32,599 bases of DNA from Opitutia bacterium Tous-C1TDCM (GTDB lineage Bacteria > Verrucomicrobiota > Verrucomicrobiia > Opitutales > Opitutaceae): contig NEUS01000041.1 in the NCBI GenBank assembly GCA_002288455.1, forward strand, positions 1 through 32,599. Direction: 5' to 3'. A program made the position numbers and the translations under genes. Below, one piece after another: positions 18,810 to 26,457 of this stretch (positions are counted from its first letter, which is position 1; every line of letters starts with the position of its first letter). The notes beneath the pieces were generated by a model. It was not told the DNA's origin. It saw only the letters and a program-made list of their open reading frames with translations, and did not search any database.

Positions 18810-20354
18810 TTACTTGCGGGCGGGGACGGTGTTGGCGCGGACGGCTTCGGGGTGGCGGGCGAGGATGGCGCGCAGGCGGGCGACGACCTCGGGTTGGTCG
18901 GCGGCGAGGTTGCGGCGCTCGGCGGGATCAACTTCGTAGTCGTAGAGTTCGAACTCGGCGGTTTCGGGCGCGGCGCCGGGGCGTTTCCATTCCACGAGCC
19001 GGTGGCGTTCGGTGCGGATGGCGCGGCCCATGCGTTCGGCGCGCGGGTAGGCGTGGTAGGCGTGGTCGCGGAGACGCACGGACGGATCGCGCAGGGCGGG
19101 CACGAGACTTTGGCCGTCGATGGACTGCGGGCCGGCGGGCGCGGGCAGGCCGGCGAGTTCGGCGAGCGTGGGGAAAACATCGACGGTTTCGGCGGGCGTG
19201 CGGGCGACGCCGCCGGGGCGCGAGACGCCGGGGGCGGCGATCACGAGGGGGATGCGGTTGGCCTGCTCGTAGTTGGTGTGCTTGGTCCAGTAGCCGTGGT
19301 CGCCGAGGTGCCAGCCGTGGTCGCCCCAGAGGACGACGATGGTGTTTTTCGCGAGGCCGAGGCGGTCGAGCTCGTCGAGCACCTTGCCGACCTGCGCATC
19401 CATAAAGCTGAGACACGCATAGTAGGCGTGCAGGAGGGTGCGCTGCGTCTCGGCGGTGCGGAGACTTTCGACGGTGAGCGGATCGTAGTTCACGATTTCG
19501 CCGCCGCGTTTGCCGGCGTAGGCCGGAGCGCCGACGGGGTCGGTTTGGTCGGGAGCAAGTTGGAAAACGGCGGGATCGTAGAGGTCCCAGTAACGCTGCG
19601 GCGCGGTGAGCGGCAGGTGCGGTTTCACGAAACCGAGGGCGAGGAAGAAAGGCGTGTCAGGCTTTTCGCGCGCGGCGCGGAGACGGCGGATGCCTTCGGC
19701 GGCGATGCGGCCGTCGGCGTAGGCCTCGTCGGCAACGGCGAGTTTTTCCCAGGCGGCGCCGCGGGGGAGGGATTGGATTTCACCGAGTTTCTGGTTGGTG
19801 AAGAACGCTTCCTCGCGGGTGAGTCGGCCGCCGGCGGAATTCTTCGGGTCGAGGTACTCGACGACCTTTTCCTTCACGGCCGGGACGCTCCAGGAGGCGT
19901 CGTCGTCGTGGTTGCCGTGGCCGGTGTGGAGGATTTTGCCGATCGCTTCGGCGCGCCAGCCGTGGCGCATGAAGTGTTGCGTGAGGGTGACGGCGTCGGG
20001 GACGGCGAGGCGGAAATTGCGGTTGAGGCCGTAGATGCCGAGCGAGGTGGAGCGCGAGCCGAGCATCAGGTTGTTGCGCGAGGGGGCGCAGACGGACTGG
20101 TTGCAGTAGGCGAGGTCGAAGCGCGTGCCGCGGGCGGCGAGGCGGTCGAGGTGCGGCGTGCGCGCGAGGCGATCGCCGTAGGCGCCGAGGTTGGGCTTCA
20201 GGTCGTCGACGCAGAGCAGGAGGATGTTGGGGCGGGATGGGGCGGGCGCGGGGGCGGGGGCGGCGAGGAGGGTGGAAGAGAGGAGGTATAGGAGGGATAG
20301 GACCCAGAGGACGGATGGGACTGATGGGACGGATAGGTGGACGGCGGGGCGCAT
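18810..20354 (-). CDS. Exported sulfatase, iduronate-2-sulfatase-like
   Basis: This is a 514-residue S1 sulfatase. The signal peptide (residues 1-31) is built from a tandem repeat (MRPAVHLSVPSVPSV start). NILLLCVDDLKPNLGAYGD at 43-61 gives metal-binding Asp50/Asp51. CAPSR at 89-93 is the formylglycine motif (Cys89), preceded by YCNQSV as in iduronate-2-sulfatases (human enzyme: QAVCAPSR). GFVKPHLPLTAP and the following YWDLYDP are also hallmarks of that subfamily, and WGDHGWHLGDHG carries further metal ligands. Iduronate-2-sulfatases remove the 2-O-sulfate of uronic acids, but bacterial relatives also act on other sulfated glycans. It is last of three sulfatase genes, 5 nt after the previous stop (TGA-CCCCC-ATG), with no Shine-Dalgarno. 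Confidence 0.9.
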   Translation of the reverse strand: MRPAVHLSVPSVPSVLWVLSLLYLLSSTLLAAPAPAPAPSRPNILLLCVDDLKPNLGAYGDRLARTPHLDRLAARGTRFDLAYCNQSVCAPSRNNLMLGSRSTSLGIYGLNRNFRLAVPDAVTLTQHFMRHGWRAEAIGKILHTGHGNHDDDASWSVPAVKEKVVEYLDPKNSAGGRLTREEAFFTNQKLGEIQSLPRGAAWEKLAVADEAYADGRIAAEGIRRLRAAREKPDTPFFLALGFVKPHLPLTAPQRYWDLYDPAVFQLAPDQTDPVGAPAYAGKRGGEIVNYDPLTVESLRTAETQRTLLHAYYACLSFMDAQVGKVLDELDRLGLAKNTIVVLWGDHGWHLGDHGYWTKHTNYEQANRIPLVIAAPGVSRPGGVARTPAETVDVFPTLAELAGLPAPAGPQSIDGQSLVPALRDPSVRLRDHAYHAYPRAERMGRAIRTERHRLVEWKRPGAAPETAEFELYDYEVDPAERRNLAADQPEVVARLRAILARHPEAVRANTVPARK

Positions 20355-20370
20355 GGGGGTCAGGGAGTGG
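20268..20370 (-). repeat. 9-nt tandem repeat block encoding a signal peptide and the gene junction (copy 1)
   Basis: On the minus strand, units such as CCATCCGTC and CTATCCCTC repeat every 9 nt and are read as L-S-V, P-S-V, P-S-V, L-W-V, L-S-L, L-Y-L, covering residues 7-29 of the iduronate-sulfatase-like protein. With the start codon and the preceding gene's stop, the 103-nt block aligns without gaps to 21746-21848, about 91 identities by eye. Confidence 0.8.
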
Positions 20371-21832
20371 ATTTGCGTTTGGCGGGGTCGTTGCGCTCGG
20401 CTTGGGCGGCGCCTTGGCGGGTGTGGGCGACGAGTTCGGTCTCGAGGCCGCGGTCGCCTTGCTGGCGCATCCAGGCGTCGAGGCGGGCGGAGAGCCGGGC
20501 GCGGACGGCGGCGAATTGCGGATCGGCGGCGAGGTTGCGGTTTTCGAATTCGTCGGCGGCGAGGTCGTAGAGTTCCTCGGCGGGGCGGCGGAAGAGGCGT
20601 TCGATCCGGGCGGCGAGCGCGGGGTTGGTCTTGGCGTCTTCCTGCCAGGAGGCGATCGGCTGGCCGCGGTGGATGCCGCCGATCTCGTAGGTGTTTTGCG
20701 GGGCGAGATTGCGGATGTATTTGTAGCGGGCGTCGCGGACGGCGCGCATCGGATACGGATCCCGGTAACCGTTGATGCCGACGGTGGTGTGCTGGGCGAA
20801 GACGGCGTCGTGGTGCGTATCCGTTTTTCCGGACAGGACGGCAAGGAAGCTGCGGCCGTCGAAGCCGCGGGCGCCGAGGGCGTCGGGGCAGCCGGTGTCG
20901 ACGGCGGCGGGATCGAGGCCGGCCGCGGCGAGCAGCGTGGGGGGCACATCGGTGTATTGGAGCAGGGCGGACGAGGCGGAGCCGGGGGCGACGCGGCCGG
21001 GCCAGCGGACGAGGGCGGCGGTGCGGACGCCGTTGTCGTAGAGGCTCCATTTGCCGCCGTAGGGGAAGCCGCTGCCCTGTTCGCTGACGAACATCACGAG
21101 GGTGTCCGCGGCTTGGCCGGTTTCCGCGAGCAGGCGGAGCAGTTCGCCGACCTGCCGATCGAGCTGGGAGATCTCGGCGAAGTAGCCGGCGAGCATCTGG
21201 CGCGTGACGGCGTTGTCGTGGAGGTAGGGCGGGACGGTGATCCGGGCGGGATCGTAGAGTTCCTTGGGGCCGCGGGTGTAGGGGCCGTGCGGATCGTTGG
21301 AGGCGAAGACGAGGAGCCAGGGCTGCGCGGGATCGCGGGTCAGGAAGTCCCGGGTGGGGACGAAGTTGTCCTCGCCGCGTTTGGCGAGGTGCTCGTAGGG
21401 GAACGAGGCGGCGGGACCGACGTGTTCCTTGCCCTGGAGGCCGACGCGGTAGCCGGCGGCTTTGAGGTAGGTGAAGATGCTTTTGGTGCCGTCGTAGGCG
21501 CGCGTGTGGTTCGGGTAGGCGCCGGAGCGGATGCCGTGCAGGCCGGTGTAGAGGGCGTGGCGGGTGGGGGAGCACGTGGTCGCGGGCGTGAACATCCCGT
21601 GCAGCTGCATGCCCTCGCGGCGGAGGCGGTCGAGGTGCGGGGTCTTGACGTCGGGACTGCCGGTGAAGCCGAGGTCGCGCCAGTTCAGGTCGTCGGCGAC
21701 GATGAGGAGGAAGTTGGGGCGGGGGGCGGGGGCGGGAGCGGCGGGGAGGGTAGAAGAGAGGAGGAATAGGAGGAATAGGACCCATGGGACGGATGGGACC
21801 CATGGGACGGATAGGCGGGGGGAGGGGCGCAT
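20360..21832 (-). CDS. Exported sulfatase, sulfamidase (N-sulfoglucosamine sulfohydrolase)-like
   Basis: This is a 490-residue S1 sulfatase. Its signal peptide (MRPSPRLSVPWVPSVPW...) has a repeat-encoded core. PNFLLIVADDLNWRDLGFTG at 39-58 holds Asp47/Asp48, and CSPTR at 87-91 is the formylglycine motif (Cys87). LQGKEHVGPAASFPYEH and FASNDPHGPY resemble the GKKHVGP and FHDPH segments of human heparan N-sulfatase, so a sulfamidase-like subfamily is likely. FVSEQGSGFPYGGKW supplies the distal active-site residues. The real bacterial substrate could differ. The gene is second of three tandem sulfatases, 5 nt after the AtsA-like gene (TGA-TCCCC-ATG) and 5 nt before the next. No Shine-Dalgarno is visible; coupled translation is likely. 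Confidence 0.87.
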   Translation of the reverse strand: MRPSPRLSVPWVPSVPWVLFLLFLLSSTLPAAPAPAPRPNFLLIVADDLNWRDLGFTGSPDVKTPHLDRLRREGMQLHGMFTPATTCSPTRHALYTGLHGIRSGAYPNHTRAYDGTKSIFTYLKAAGYRVGLQGKEHVGPAASFPYEHLAKRGEDNFVPTRDFLTRDPAQPWLLVFASNDPHGPYTRGPKELYDPARITVPPYLHDNAVTRQMLAGYFAEISQLDRQVGELLRLLAETGQAADTLVMFVSEQGSGFPYGGKWSLYDNGVRTAALVRWPGRVAPGSASSALLQYTDVPPTLLAAAGLDPAAVDTGCPDALGARGFDGRSFLAVLSGKTDTHHDAVFAQHTTVGINGYRDPYPMRAVRDARYKYIRNLAPQNTYEIGGIHRGQPIASWQEDAKTNPALAARIERLFRRPAEELYDLAADEFENRNLAADPQFAAVRARLSARLDAWMRQQGDRGLETELVAHTRQGAAQAERNDPAKRKSTP

Positions 21833-21848
21833 GGGGATCAGGGAGTGG
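21746..21848 (-). repeat. 9-nt tandem repeat block encoding a signal peptide and the gene junction (copy 2)
   Basis: This has the same architecture as 20268-20370: P-W-V, P-S-V, P-W-V, L-F-L, L-F-L triplets from CCATGGGTC- and CCATCCGTC-type units, residues 7-29 of the sulfamidase-like protein. The block also includes CGCATGGGG and TCAGGGAGTGG (plus strand) across the start/stop junction, which is nearly identical at both sulfatase junctions. Confidence 0.8.
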
Positions 21849-23505
21849 CGGGGCGGGTCTTGGGGAGGACTTGGTGGGTCTCGGCCCAGGTTTGCCAAGC
21901 GGCGGTGAGTTCGCGGAGGCGGTCGGGGTGGGCGGCGGCGAGGTTGCGGAGCTCGGTGCGGTCGGTGGCGAGATCGTAGAGTTCCCAGGGGGAATCTTTC
22001 TCGGCGGGGCGCACGGCTTTCCAGTTGCCGTGGCGGACGGCCTGGTTGCCGTACTGTTCCCAGAAGAGCCAGCGGTCGCCGGCGGCAGGCTCGCCGCGGA
22101 GGGCGGGGACGAGGCTGCGGCCGGCGAGGGGCGTCAGCGGCTTGCCGTGGTGGGAAGCCGGATACGCGAGGCCGGCGAGCTCGAGGGCGGTCGGCATGAA
22201 GTCGGTGAGGTAGCCGGGCGTGCGCGCGATGGTGCCGGGCGCGGTGCGCAGGCCGGCGGGCCAATGGGCGATGAGCGGGGTGGCGATGCCGCCCTCGTGG
22301 AGGCGGGATTTGTAGCGGCGGAAGGGCGTGTTGGAGGCGTTGGCCCAGCCGGTGCCGTAGGACGAACCGTTGCGGCCGGCGTTGCGCCCGCCGGAGCCGG
22401 CGGCGGCGGGGTCGTTGATGGCGTCGGAGTGGCCGCCGCCGAGATCGGTGTAGGGTTCGGCGCAGGCGCCGTTGTCGGAGAGGAAGAGGATCAGTGTGTT
22501 CTCCAGTTGGCCGAGCGAGCGGAGGGATTCGACGAGGCGGCCGATGTTCCAATCCATGCGGTGGACCTGCGCGGCGTAGACGGCCATGCGGTAATCGAGA
22601 TCGGTTTTTTGCGCGGCGGTGAGTTCGTCCCAGGCGCGGGCGCCGTCGTCGCGGGGCGAGAGCGGGGCGGCGGGGCCGAGCAGGCCGGATTTTTCCTGGC
22701 GGGCGAAGCGCTCGGCGCGGAGGCGGTCCCAGCCGGCGAGGTATTGGCCTTTGAATTTCGCGATATCGCCGGGGCGCGCGTGGAGCGGCCAATGGGGCGC
22801 GTTGAAGGCGAGGTAGAGGAAGAAGGGCGCGTTTTTCGGATGCTCGCGGACGAATTGCAGGGCGTGGTCGGTGAAGGCGTCGGTCGTGTAGTAGTCGGGC
22901 GAGGACGGCGTCGGCTGAGGCTCGTTGTCGAGGGTGAGGCCGCGCGGATCCTTGGGGGTGAAGTAACTCGTGGCGCCGGAGATGATGCCGTAGAAGCGAT
23001 CGAAGCCGCGTTGGAGCGGCCAGTTCGCGCGGTCGTGGTAACCGAGGTGCCATTTGCCGGCGAGGTAGGCTTTGTAGCCGGCGGGTTTGAGGGCTTCGGC
23101 GATGGTAACGCAGCGGTCGTTGAGGAATTCCTGGTAGCCGGGGGCGGCGTTGGCGGGGGCGCGTTTGTTGGGATCTTCGGCGAGCGTGCCCATGCCGGCG
23201 CTGTGCGGGTCGAGACCGGTGAGCAGGGCGGCGCGGGTGGGCGAGCAGCGGGCGGTGTTGTAGAATTGGGAAAACCGCAGGCCGGAGCGCGCGAGGGCGT
23301 CGAGGTGCGGCGTGGGGATTTCCGAGCCGTAGCTGCCGATGTCGGAAAAGCCCATGTCGTCGGCGAGGATGATGACGAGATTGGGTTTGGGGGTGGGGGC
23401 GGCGGCGGGGGCAGCTGCGGCGGGGAGGGTGGAGGAGAGGAGGGATAGGACCCATAGGACGGATGGGACCGATGGGACGGATAGAAGCAGGGGACGGAGG
23501 CGCAT
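21838..23505 (-). CDS. Exported arylsulfatase, AtsA-like
   Basis: This is a 555-residue S1 sulfatase. Its signal peptide (MRLRPLLLSVPSVPSVLWVL) has a repeat-encoded core. PNLVIILADDMGFSDIGSYG at 41-60 holds Asp49/Asp50, CSPTR at 87-91 is the formylglycine motif (Cys87), and AALLTGLDPHSAGMGT follows as in Pseudomonas AtsA-type arylsulfatases. GKWHLG and FLSDNGACAEP carry more active-site residues. The length matches AtsA (about 530-560). It is the first gene of the three-sulfatase operon and diverges from the EF-hand gene, so the operon promoter should lie in 23506-23651. Its maturation by a formylglycine-generating enzyme must come from elsewhere in the genome. Confidence 0.9.
   Translation of the reverse strand: MRLRPLLLSVPSVPSVLWVLSLLSSTLPAAAAPAAAPTPKPNLVIILADDMGFSDIGSYGSEIPTPHLDALARSGLRFSQFYNTARCSPTRAALLTGLDPHSAGMGTLAEDPNKRAPANAAPGYQEFLNDRCVTIAEALKPAGYKAYLAGKWHLGYHDRANWPLQRGFDRFYGIISGATSYFTPKDPRGLTLDNEPQPTPSSPDYYTTDAFTDHALQFVREHPKNAPFFLYLAFNAPHWPLHARPGDIAKFKGQYLAGWDRLRAERFARQEKSGLLGPAAPLSPRDDGARAWDELTAAQKTDLDYRMAVYAAQVHRMDWNIGRLVESLRSLGQLENTLILFLSDNGACAEPYTDLGGGHSDAINDPAAAGSGGRNAGRNGSSYGTGWANASNTPFRRYKSRLHEGGIATPLIAHWPAGLRTAPGTIARTPGYLTDFMPTALELAGLAYPASHHGKPLTPLAGRSLVPALRGEPAAGDRWLFWEQYGNQAVRHGNWKAVRPAEKDSPWELYDLATDRTELRNLAAAHPDRLRELTAAWQTWAETHQVLPKTRPATP
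23425..23484 (-). repeat. 9-nt tandem repeat encoding the AtsA-like signal peptide core (copy 3)
   Basis: Units of the CCATCCGTC family encode L-S-V, P-S-V, P-S-V, L-W-V, L-S-L, then L-S-S-T-L, residues 8-27. Compared with copies 1 and 2 this array lacks exactly one 9-nt unit (the L-Y-L / L-F-L triplet), a typical slippage difference. Confidence 0.75.
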
Positions 23506-24936: not shown

Positions 24937-25140
24937 GCGATAAGACCGGAGTGCGGAGACCGGAAACCGGAGGATAGAAACCGGAATGCGGAGACCGGAT
25001 ACCGGAAACGGAAGACCGGAGGCCGGAGACGAGAGCCGATATCGGAGGGGCTGATACGGGACCATCCGTCGGCGCGACGCCGTCACTCGGGTGGCCGCTC
25101 CTGTTTCCGGTCTCCGGTTTCCGAATTCCGGTTTTATCTA
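24937..25140. repeat. Heptamer (GGARACC) array and inverted copy between convergent genes
   Basis: From 24943 to about 25035 the plus strand is a degenerate 7-nt tandem repeat: GGAGACC, GGAAACC, GGAATGC, GGAGACC, GGATACC, GGAAACG and so on. At 25099-25136 the same family recurs in reverse complement. GATAAGACCGGA follows the esterase stop and, on the minus strand, GATAAAACCGGA follows the aminotransferase stop, so each convergent gene reads into a similar sequence. The two arms could pair as a long imperfect stem around a loop of about 125 nt and act as a bidirectional terminator. Confidence 0.7.
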
Positions 25141-26249: not shown

Positions 26250-26457
26250 GGGAGGAAAAGAAGAAAGGGGGAAATTGGGAAATTGGGAAACGACGGAAAG
26301 GCGGGAGGCGGGGGAAGAAAGGCGGAAGGCGAAAGGCGAAAATCGGAAAAGCGGAAAAGCGGGAGAGGTGAAATCGCGAAAATCGAGAAACTGGGAAATT
26401 GGAAGATCGGGAATGCTGAAACCTAAAGATTGGAAAACGGGAAATTGGCGGGGCTGG
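26250..26457. repeat. Octamer (GGGAAATT / CGGAAAAG) degenerate tandem repeat
   Basis: About 200 bp of almost pure purines on the plus strand with a 7-9-nt (mostly 8) period: GGGAAATT twice, GGGAAACG, then CGGAAAAG, CGAAAATC and related units. It fills the space between the bicupin stop (26461) and the aminotransferase start (26247), so it is the 3' flank of one and the 5' leader of the other; on the mRNA it is a pyrimidine tract. No hairpin is expected from such strand asymmetry. Confidence 0.7.

Follow-up and report, generated by a model that had tools for sequence, protein, structure and literature searches.

The contig NEUS01000041.1 of Opitutia bacterium Tous-C1TDCM (family Opitutaceae; assembly GCA_002288455.1; 32,599 nt, hereafter the window) encodes three consecutive sulfatases, here called A, B and C, whose putative signal peptides are built from tandem copies of a 9-nt sequence found at many other sites of the same genome. 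The sequence comparisons described below make it likely that a dispersed, mostly intergenic repeat was captured as the Sec export tag of these sulfatases and copied locally, and that gene B moved between flanking copies of it (Table 1).

Translation of the three genes showed clean arrays of six, six and five in-frame units in A, B and C, each followed by one degenerate unit (CTCTCTTCC type) read as L-S-S. The N-termini are MRPAVH-LSVPSVPSVLWVLSLLYL-LSS-TLLA in A, MRPSPR-LSVPWVPSVPWVLFLLFL-LSS-TLPA in B and MRLRPLL-LSVPSVPSVLWVLSL-LSS-TLPA in C. An earlier note on this DNA had described signal peptides encoded by such units, and these data confirm it: the residue ranges that it gave are approximately reproduced once the degenerate unit is added to the clean ones, and C has exactly one unit less than A and B. 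The signal-peptide-like stretch spans 31 residues from the start in A and B and 29 in C. By inspection, and with the usual cleavage rule in mind, all three fit the anatomy of a substrate of the Sec pathway and signal peptidase I (SPase I), with an MR start, a hydrophobic core and LLA or LPA before an alanine. From this anatomy and from the homologues, we infer that the array residues act as the hydrophobic (h) region of Sec signal peptides. Of the three sense frames of the unit (YATNNGTCC on the coding strand), the one used here, called the hydrophobic frame, yields Leu/Pro - Ser/Trp/Phe - Val.

The proteins behind the tags are distinct. A profile search found the PF00884 sulfatase domain in all three, and their translations carry CAPSR (A), CSPTR (B) and CSPTR (C), in agreement with the C-x-P-x-R pattern that we take to be the type I sulfatase motif. 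The best PDB matches of C are 7all (4.8e-106) and 1hdh (1.1e-104), both annotated as arylsulfatase, the latter presumably the Pseudomonas AtsA. Those of B are the S1_8A sulfatase 9bb9 (1.2e-37) and the N-sulphoglucosamine sulphohydrolase 4mhx (7.8e-35); A matches the arylsulfatase 6hhm (1.9e-78) best and then the iduronate-2-sulfatase 5fql (3.6e-57). These matches agree with the earlier assignment to three subfamilies (AtsA-, sulfamidase- and iduronate-sulfatase-like), while none of the three proteins reached the curated cut-off of an NCBIfam model. In BLASTP alignments that take in the tags, B and C are 26% identical and A and C 30%; the alignment of A with B falls into two pieces, one of 24% over 312 columns and one of 46% over 109 columns that include the tag.

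The unit, GGACNNATR / YATNNGTCC with a period of 9, recurs at many unlinked loci of the window's genome (G000, 4.15 Mb). The three-unit pattern GGACNNATNGGACNNATNGGAC has 42 exact matches there, the same 42 when the third N is restricted to R, and its reversed version has none in either form; with up to two mismatches the count is 136, again with none for the reversed pattern. Chance thus does not account for the sulfatase arrays. A reversed-sequence control also gave 0 with the array finder in the G000 stretches examined. In the genome of a sister species (G007), matches with up to two mismatches number 179, against 2 in the reversed control. Among 27 genomes of the genus, exact three-unit matches occur in these two only (42 in G000, 39 in G007).

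The location of the arrays was surveyed in stretches around matches in G000 and G007, with genes called by a self-made codon model; the counts refer to the matches listed and are lower bounds. Among these, 7 of 37 arrays in G000 and 3 of 33 in G007 lie mostly inside called genes, and one further G000 array, before the called part of a BamB-like gene, is coding by homology. Signal-peptide arrays make up 4 of the 37 in G000, among the matches listed. Signal peptides are therefore a minority use of the repeat, the majority of copies being located between genes, and a specific association of the arrays with signal peptides is ruled out. Of the other arrays called as coding in G000, one sits at the end of a gene of 697 aa (L052), one within a gene of 317 aa (L057), one in a weakly called gene (L059) and one in what looks like a linker in a gene of 1242 aa (L063). 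The arrays of A, B and C would thus be copies of a repeat that mostly sits in intergenic gaps of both genomes, captured, as we picture it, from a neighbouring intergenic array.

Homologues in other genomes of the genus offer a view of the sulfatases without the repeat. No array was seen in the 26 N-termini inspected (11 of A, 10 of B and 5 of C, from 24 of 31 such sulfatase loci), nearly all of which start with an ordinary signal peptide. In three of these genomes (G015, G017 and G020), C and A are neighbours and have ordinary signal peptides. The A and C proteins of G007 share 96% and 95% identity with their G000 counterparts over the aligned parts; A reads MRSFRLSVLSVLSVAFVLSSALAAPA and C reads MRLPPFRLPLRLSVLSVLSVASVLFSSLPAAPA, with four clean units each as against six, six and five for A, B and C in G000. 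By this comparison, the arrays would have replaced a conventional core in the signal peptides of the C-A pair in the line leading to G000 and G007.

A unit alignment of the A and C arrays of both genomes has 14 informative columns, consisting of five substitutions and one 9-nt gap (nine columns). All of them pair A with C inside a genome; none groups the arrays by gene and none crosswise. Since the informative differences cluster by genome and not by gene, the tags appear to have been homogenised between genes within each genome, on bodies only about 24-30% identical. Recent gene duplication as the source of the common tag is ruled out by this low identity. The site patterns point to local copying of the operon copies after their capture, for example by gene conversion between repeats.

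The two genomes differ further by a segment comprising gene B and one array. The blastn blocks against G007 stop at window position 20245 and start again at 21769 (positions 20769 and 20777 of the joined G007 sequence), and the flanks of window 20246-21768 align at 90-93%. A search for B found no match in G007 at 1e-140 and none in G015 at the search cut-off; in G017 and G020, B lies about 7 to 12 kb from the C-A pair on the same contig. The two junctions flanking B, compared over 159 and 162 nt, share 133 identities with 24 mismatches. Because C and A are adjacent without B in more distant genomes, the simpler reading is that B was gained in the G000 line after its split from G007. Alternatively, B may have been gained before the split and then lost in G007 by recombination between arrays. 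In both cases B would have moved into or out of the operon between array copies on either side, the next gene keeping an in-frame export tag.

Table 1. Features of the sulfatase operon in the window.
Feature	Position	Strand	Basis
Sulfatase A, iduronate-sulfatase-like, 514 aa, MRPAVHLSVPSVPSVLWVLSLLYLLSSTLLAAPA...	18810..20354	-	PF00884 1e-42 + PDB match
Signal peptide of A (putative)	about 20262-20354	-	translation
9-nt array of A, 6 clean units, reads LSVPSVPSVLWVLSLLYL, residues 7-24	20282..20335	-	translation + array finder
Sulfatase B, sulfamidase-like, 490 aa, MRPSPRLSVPWVPSVPWVLFLLFLLSSTLPAAPA...	20360..21832	-	PF00884 1.3e-37 + PDB match
Signal peptide of B (putative)	about 21740-21832	-	translation
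9-nt array of B, 6 clean units, reads LSVPWVPSVPWVLFLLFL, residues 7-24	21760..21813	-	translation + array finder
Sulfatase C, AtsA-like, 555 aa, MRLRPLLLSVPSVPSVLWVLSLLSSTLPAAAA...	21838..23505	-	PF00884 1.7e-63 + PDB match
Signal peptide of C (putative)	about 23419-23505	-	translation
9-nt array of C, 5 clean units, reads LSVPSVPSVLWVLSL, residues 8-22	23439..23483	-	translation + array finder
Segment (gene B + one array) lacking a counterpart in G007, which has C adjacent to A	20246..21768	.	blastn
B/A junction, direct repeat of C/B junction (upstream gene end, start codon, array, cleavage region)	20252..20370	-	limits approximate
C/B junction, direct repeat of B/A junction	21733..21848	-	limits approximate

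Two further gene families carry similar tags. In G007, an exported-looking 164-aa protein has the array-built signal peptide MKSIRSLLSVPSVASVLSVLSLLAVPALAADKKHD; its G015 homologue, 80% identical, reads MKVKSLVLPIIAALAVSLPAFAADKKHD and is array-free, and no match to this protein was found in G000 at 1e-15. A BamB-like lipoprotein (PF13360, 1.4e-43) has an array-built N-terminus in both genomes, ...LSVPSVPSVLSVLSLSFSLFLTGC in G000 and ...FSVPSVRSVLAVPFFLFLAAC in G007, and its lipobox cysteine is kept in all 10 loci inspected (G000 and G007 included) out of 20. The start of the G000 gene is uncertain, since a GTG but no ATG lies within reach upstream. Replacement of the kind proposed for the C-A pair would have taken place in the BamB-like lipoprotein and, in G007, in the 164-aa protein. 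Across three gene families, the array finder responded at 8 of 9 loci in G000 and G007, the ninth (L307) being a paralogue, and at none of 63 homologue loci in other genomes. The survey of related genomes proposed in the earlier note revealed exact matches in 2 of 27 genomes of the genus and recurrent use in signal peptides, along with a predominance of intergenic copies. Its suggestion of a ready-made export tag that had spread is strengthened by the presence of the tag on three subfamilies, its homogenisation in two genomes and the similar arrays in two further unrelated gene families.

A conserved array unit, CCCATGGGTCC, was observed in both genomes at L053 1076-1111 and L036 10714-10749, where it may supply the ATG start and the first signal-peptide residues (MGPI...) of a gene that we take to be amidase-like. 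Outside the genus, an N-terminal array runs into VSAC in a metagenome-assembled genome (MAG) of the Myxococcales (L173) and into LLSC in a MAG of the Prevotellaceae (L236). A Pfam search with these two genes and those of L199 and L282 returned nothing above cut-off, and the Myxococcales and Prevotellaceae arrays are therefore treated as leads; they suggest that the route from repeat to signal peptide was taken more than once. The N-terminal arrays of L199, L259, L282 and L285 were inspected and left out of the recurrence count.

The arrays used in signal peptides differ from the others in coding quality. In a hand recount, a stop in the hydrophobic frame was present in none of 7 signal-peptide arrays as against 27 of 44 other direct arrays; per unit, a stop-making pair occurs in 39 of 198 units of the other arrays (38 real stops) and in none of 37 units of signal-peptide arrays. 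Before the recount the figures were 0 of 5 and 28 of 47; three arrays were moved, two of them (L292 3627 and L068 2806) to the signal-peptide class and one (L292 6860) as a repeat of L046. With the labels used before the recount, signal-peptide arrays are also more hydrophobic in the hydrophobic frame (Mann-Whitney p 0.004, 5 vs 47). Signal-peptide arrays share ancestry, so neither the frame nor the hydropathy trials are independent. The earlier note had regarded mostly intergenic arrays with no frame preference as fatal to its idea that the repeat tunes signal-peptide length. One half of this objection is borne out, since the arrays are indeed mostly intergenic; they do show a strand preference, but 27 of the 44 other direct arrays have a stop in the hydrophobic frame.

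That strand preference raises the question of whether the arrays are kept for a role in DNA or RNA, as terminators or as Rho- or regulator-binding sites between cistrons, with signal-peptide coding a side effect of the tight packing of the operon. In gaps between co-directional genes, 23 of 24 direct arrays have the orientation of the genes (13+10 vs 0+1). The one that does not (L043) belongs to a split inverted pair, of which it forms one half; the 23 include the BamB-like array, and orthologous array pairs are not independent. Direct arrays outside this count occupy convergent (4+3), divergent (1+1) and edge (4+5) positions. Folding of five inverted arrays gave a strong hairpin each time, with z from -5.06 to -9.22. 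Among three direct arrays, structure beyond that of shuffled sequences was absent from A (z -0.43) and L052 (z 1.35), and a local hairpin was seen in B (z -4.76). The arrays of A and B lie 24 nt past the stop of the upstream gene, inside the range for intergenic arrays of G000 (1 to 1216 nt, median 65.5). We nevertheless consider such a role an unlikely reason for the sulfatase arrays, in view of the stop-free and more hydrophobic signal-peptide copies and of gene C, whose upstream neighbour is divergent and which has no co-directional gene before it.

Slippage tuning, in which the array is kept mutable and the number of units sets signal-peptide length and export rate in frame, also appears improbable. 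Sulfatase unit numbers do differ by whole units between G000 and G007, the BamB-like array differs as well, and a three-residue signal-peptide change has an associated phenotype in human APOB (PMC5586014). However, the units inside each sulfatase array have diverged from one another, and repeats that are impure are reported to mutate less readily (PMC3899988). Moreover, orthologous intergenic arrays keep their position in the two genomes and differ in unit content and number, so such variation needs no export function; the comparison of unit numbers covers two species with one genome each.

A low-complexity coincidence, with the Leu, Ser and Val codons of GC-rich signal peptides mimicking the repeat, is very hard to maintain. 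Array-free homologues do contain CTC-TCC-GTC runs (e.g. PLSVSLALL in L312), yet the exact unit family is common to the intergenic arrays, and the array threshold was reached neither by the 63 homologue loci nor by the reversed control; we take these controls and the array-free homologues to rule it out. Finally, a true start downstream of the arrays, which would make the repeats intergenic here as most are elsewhere, is the least credible account and can be discarded: the first ATG, GTG or TTG past the array lies 71, 49 and 27 codons downstream in A, B and C, already inside the PF00884 match, and without the array residues the sulfatases would have no signal peptide, unlike their homologues.

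Several observations weigh against capture of the repeat as an export tag. The best 10-residue Kyte-Doolittle hydropathy means are 2.44 for A, 2.72 for B and 2.03 for C, and the value of C falls just under those of all ten homologue signal peptides (2.08-3.20). In all three, the most hydrophobic part is the degenerate 3' half, the P-S-V units being only weakly hydrophobic. Capture from the 3' flank of the preceding gene fails for C on account of its divergent neighbour. A few of the 63 array-free loci are partial or paralogous (L095, L327 and L329, for example, include no N-terminus), the grouping of A and C tags comes from short sequences whose units were aligned by hand, and the G000 assembly is 85.8% complete in 160 contigs.

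The repeat itself extends beyond the genus. Four of 30 further genomes gave 1 to 5 exact three-unit matches each; the one with five (G030) also gave one match to the reversed control. In a class-wide sample, an exact four-unit array occurs in 9 of 384 genomes, with one control match in one genome. Public contigs from GTDB yielded at least 119 stretches from many phyla; these 119 contain 171 arrays, 51 of them called in coding frames (27 sense, 24 antisense). This search had no reversed control, its pattern itself imposes the unit, and its gene caller had been trained on the 2 to 8 kb stretches themselves, with some calls plainly wrong (L198, L230); for these reasons we claim no broad N-terminal enrichment across phyla. 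One acidobacterial MAG, Centralia_MAG_134, carries the array on many contigs (L174, L186, L204 and others), the most among the matches listed.

Other repeat structures were seen in passing. Long hairpins formed from the 9-nt repeat, terminator-like and in several cases between convergent genes, are present in G000 and G007 (L031, L054, L055, L063, L067 and others). Dense clusters of degenerate 9-nt arrays with few called genes occupy L052 2570-8408 in G000 and L038 2901-4852 in G007. The window also contains, at 24942-25030 and 26296-26362, tandem repeats of ACCGGAGA type and GAAAGGC type, with periods of 7-8 and multiples, which are possibly further dispersed families.

Signal peptides are loosely constrained in sequence. 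In the two sister species, three unrelated gene families appear to draw theirs directly from a scattered repeat. The array-free homologues preserve the state before capture, so that the emergence and replacement of export tags can be followed; the tags offer a case of concerted evolution that is confined to them and leaves the enzymes behind them distinct, and a natural length series (4, 5 and 6 units) for the signal-peptide core. More tentatively, one might envisage a system of interchangeable repeat-borne export tags, in which a unit of a multiple of three with one hydrophobic frame supplies unrelated genes, gene conversion keeps the tags alike even where the genes have little similarity, and genes move in and out of the operon between copies so that the next gene is always tagged in frame.

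Short or repetitive extragenic palindromic (REP)-like intergenic repeats are a familiar kind in bacteria. The 9-nt family resembles them in being dispersed, mostly intergenic and hairpin-forming when inverted, and differs in having a unit with two freely varying positions. In Neisseria opa, a CTCTT coding repeat in the leader-peptide region mediates phase variation (PMC3899988, PMC3960869). The sulfatase arrays likewise lie within a signal-peptide coding region; the 5-nt opa unit shifts the frame and turns the gene on or off, whereas the 9-nt units of A, B and C are diverged, all in frame and hence not frame-switching, and belong to a genome-wide family. Human APOB has a 9-nt insertion/deletion in its signal peptide (rs17240441), the same three-residue, in-frame kind of change, at one polymorphic site of one gene; the text consulted mentions no dispersed repeat between genes (PMC5586014). 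Rickettsia palindromic elements are dispersed repeats read in frame in unrelated proteins (PMC10969869), as the 9-nt arrays are. They measure about 150 bp and have a conserved peptide, in contrast to the short direct arrays of G000 and G007, which are not palindromic in the sulfatases and whose coding copies are mainly signal-peptide cores. A literature search for six strings of the 9-nt repeat found none of them in the papers searched, and the titles and abstracts seen on such repeats in Verrucomicrobia and on repeats in bacterial signal peptides contain no description of it. The view of the earlier note that no description existed thus holds for the repeat within the literature searched, and not for signal-peptide-region repeats or 9-nt changes as such, for which opa and APOB are precedents. 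The kind is already known in its parts; the combination of a dispersed repeat with signal peptides built from its arrays is new.

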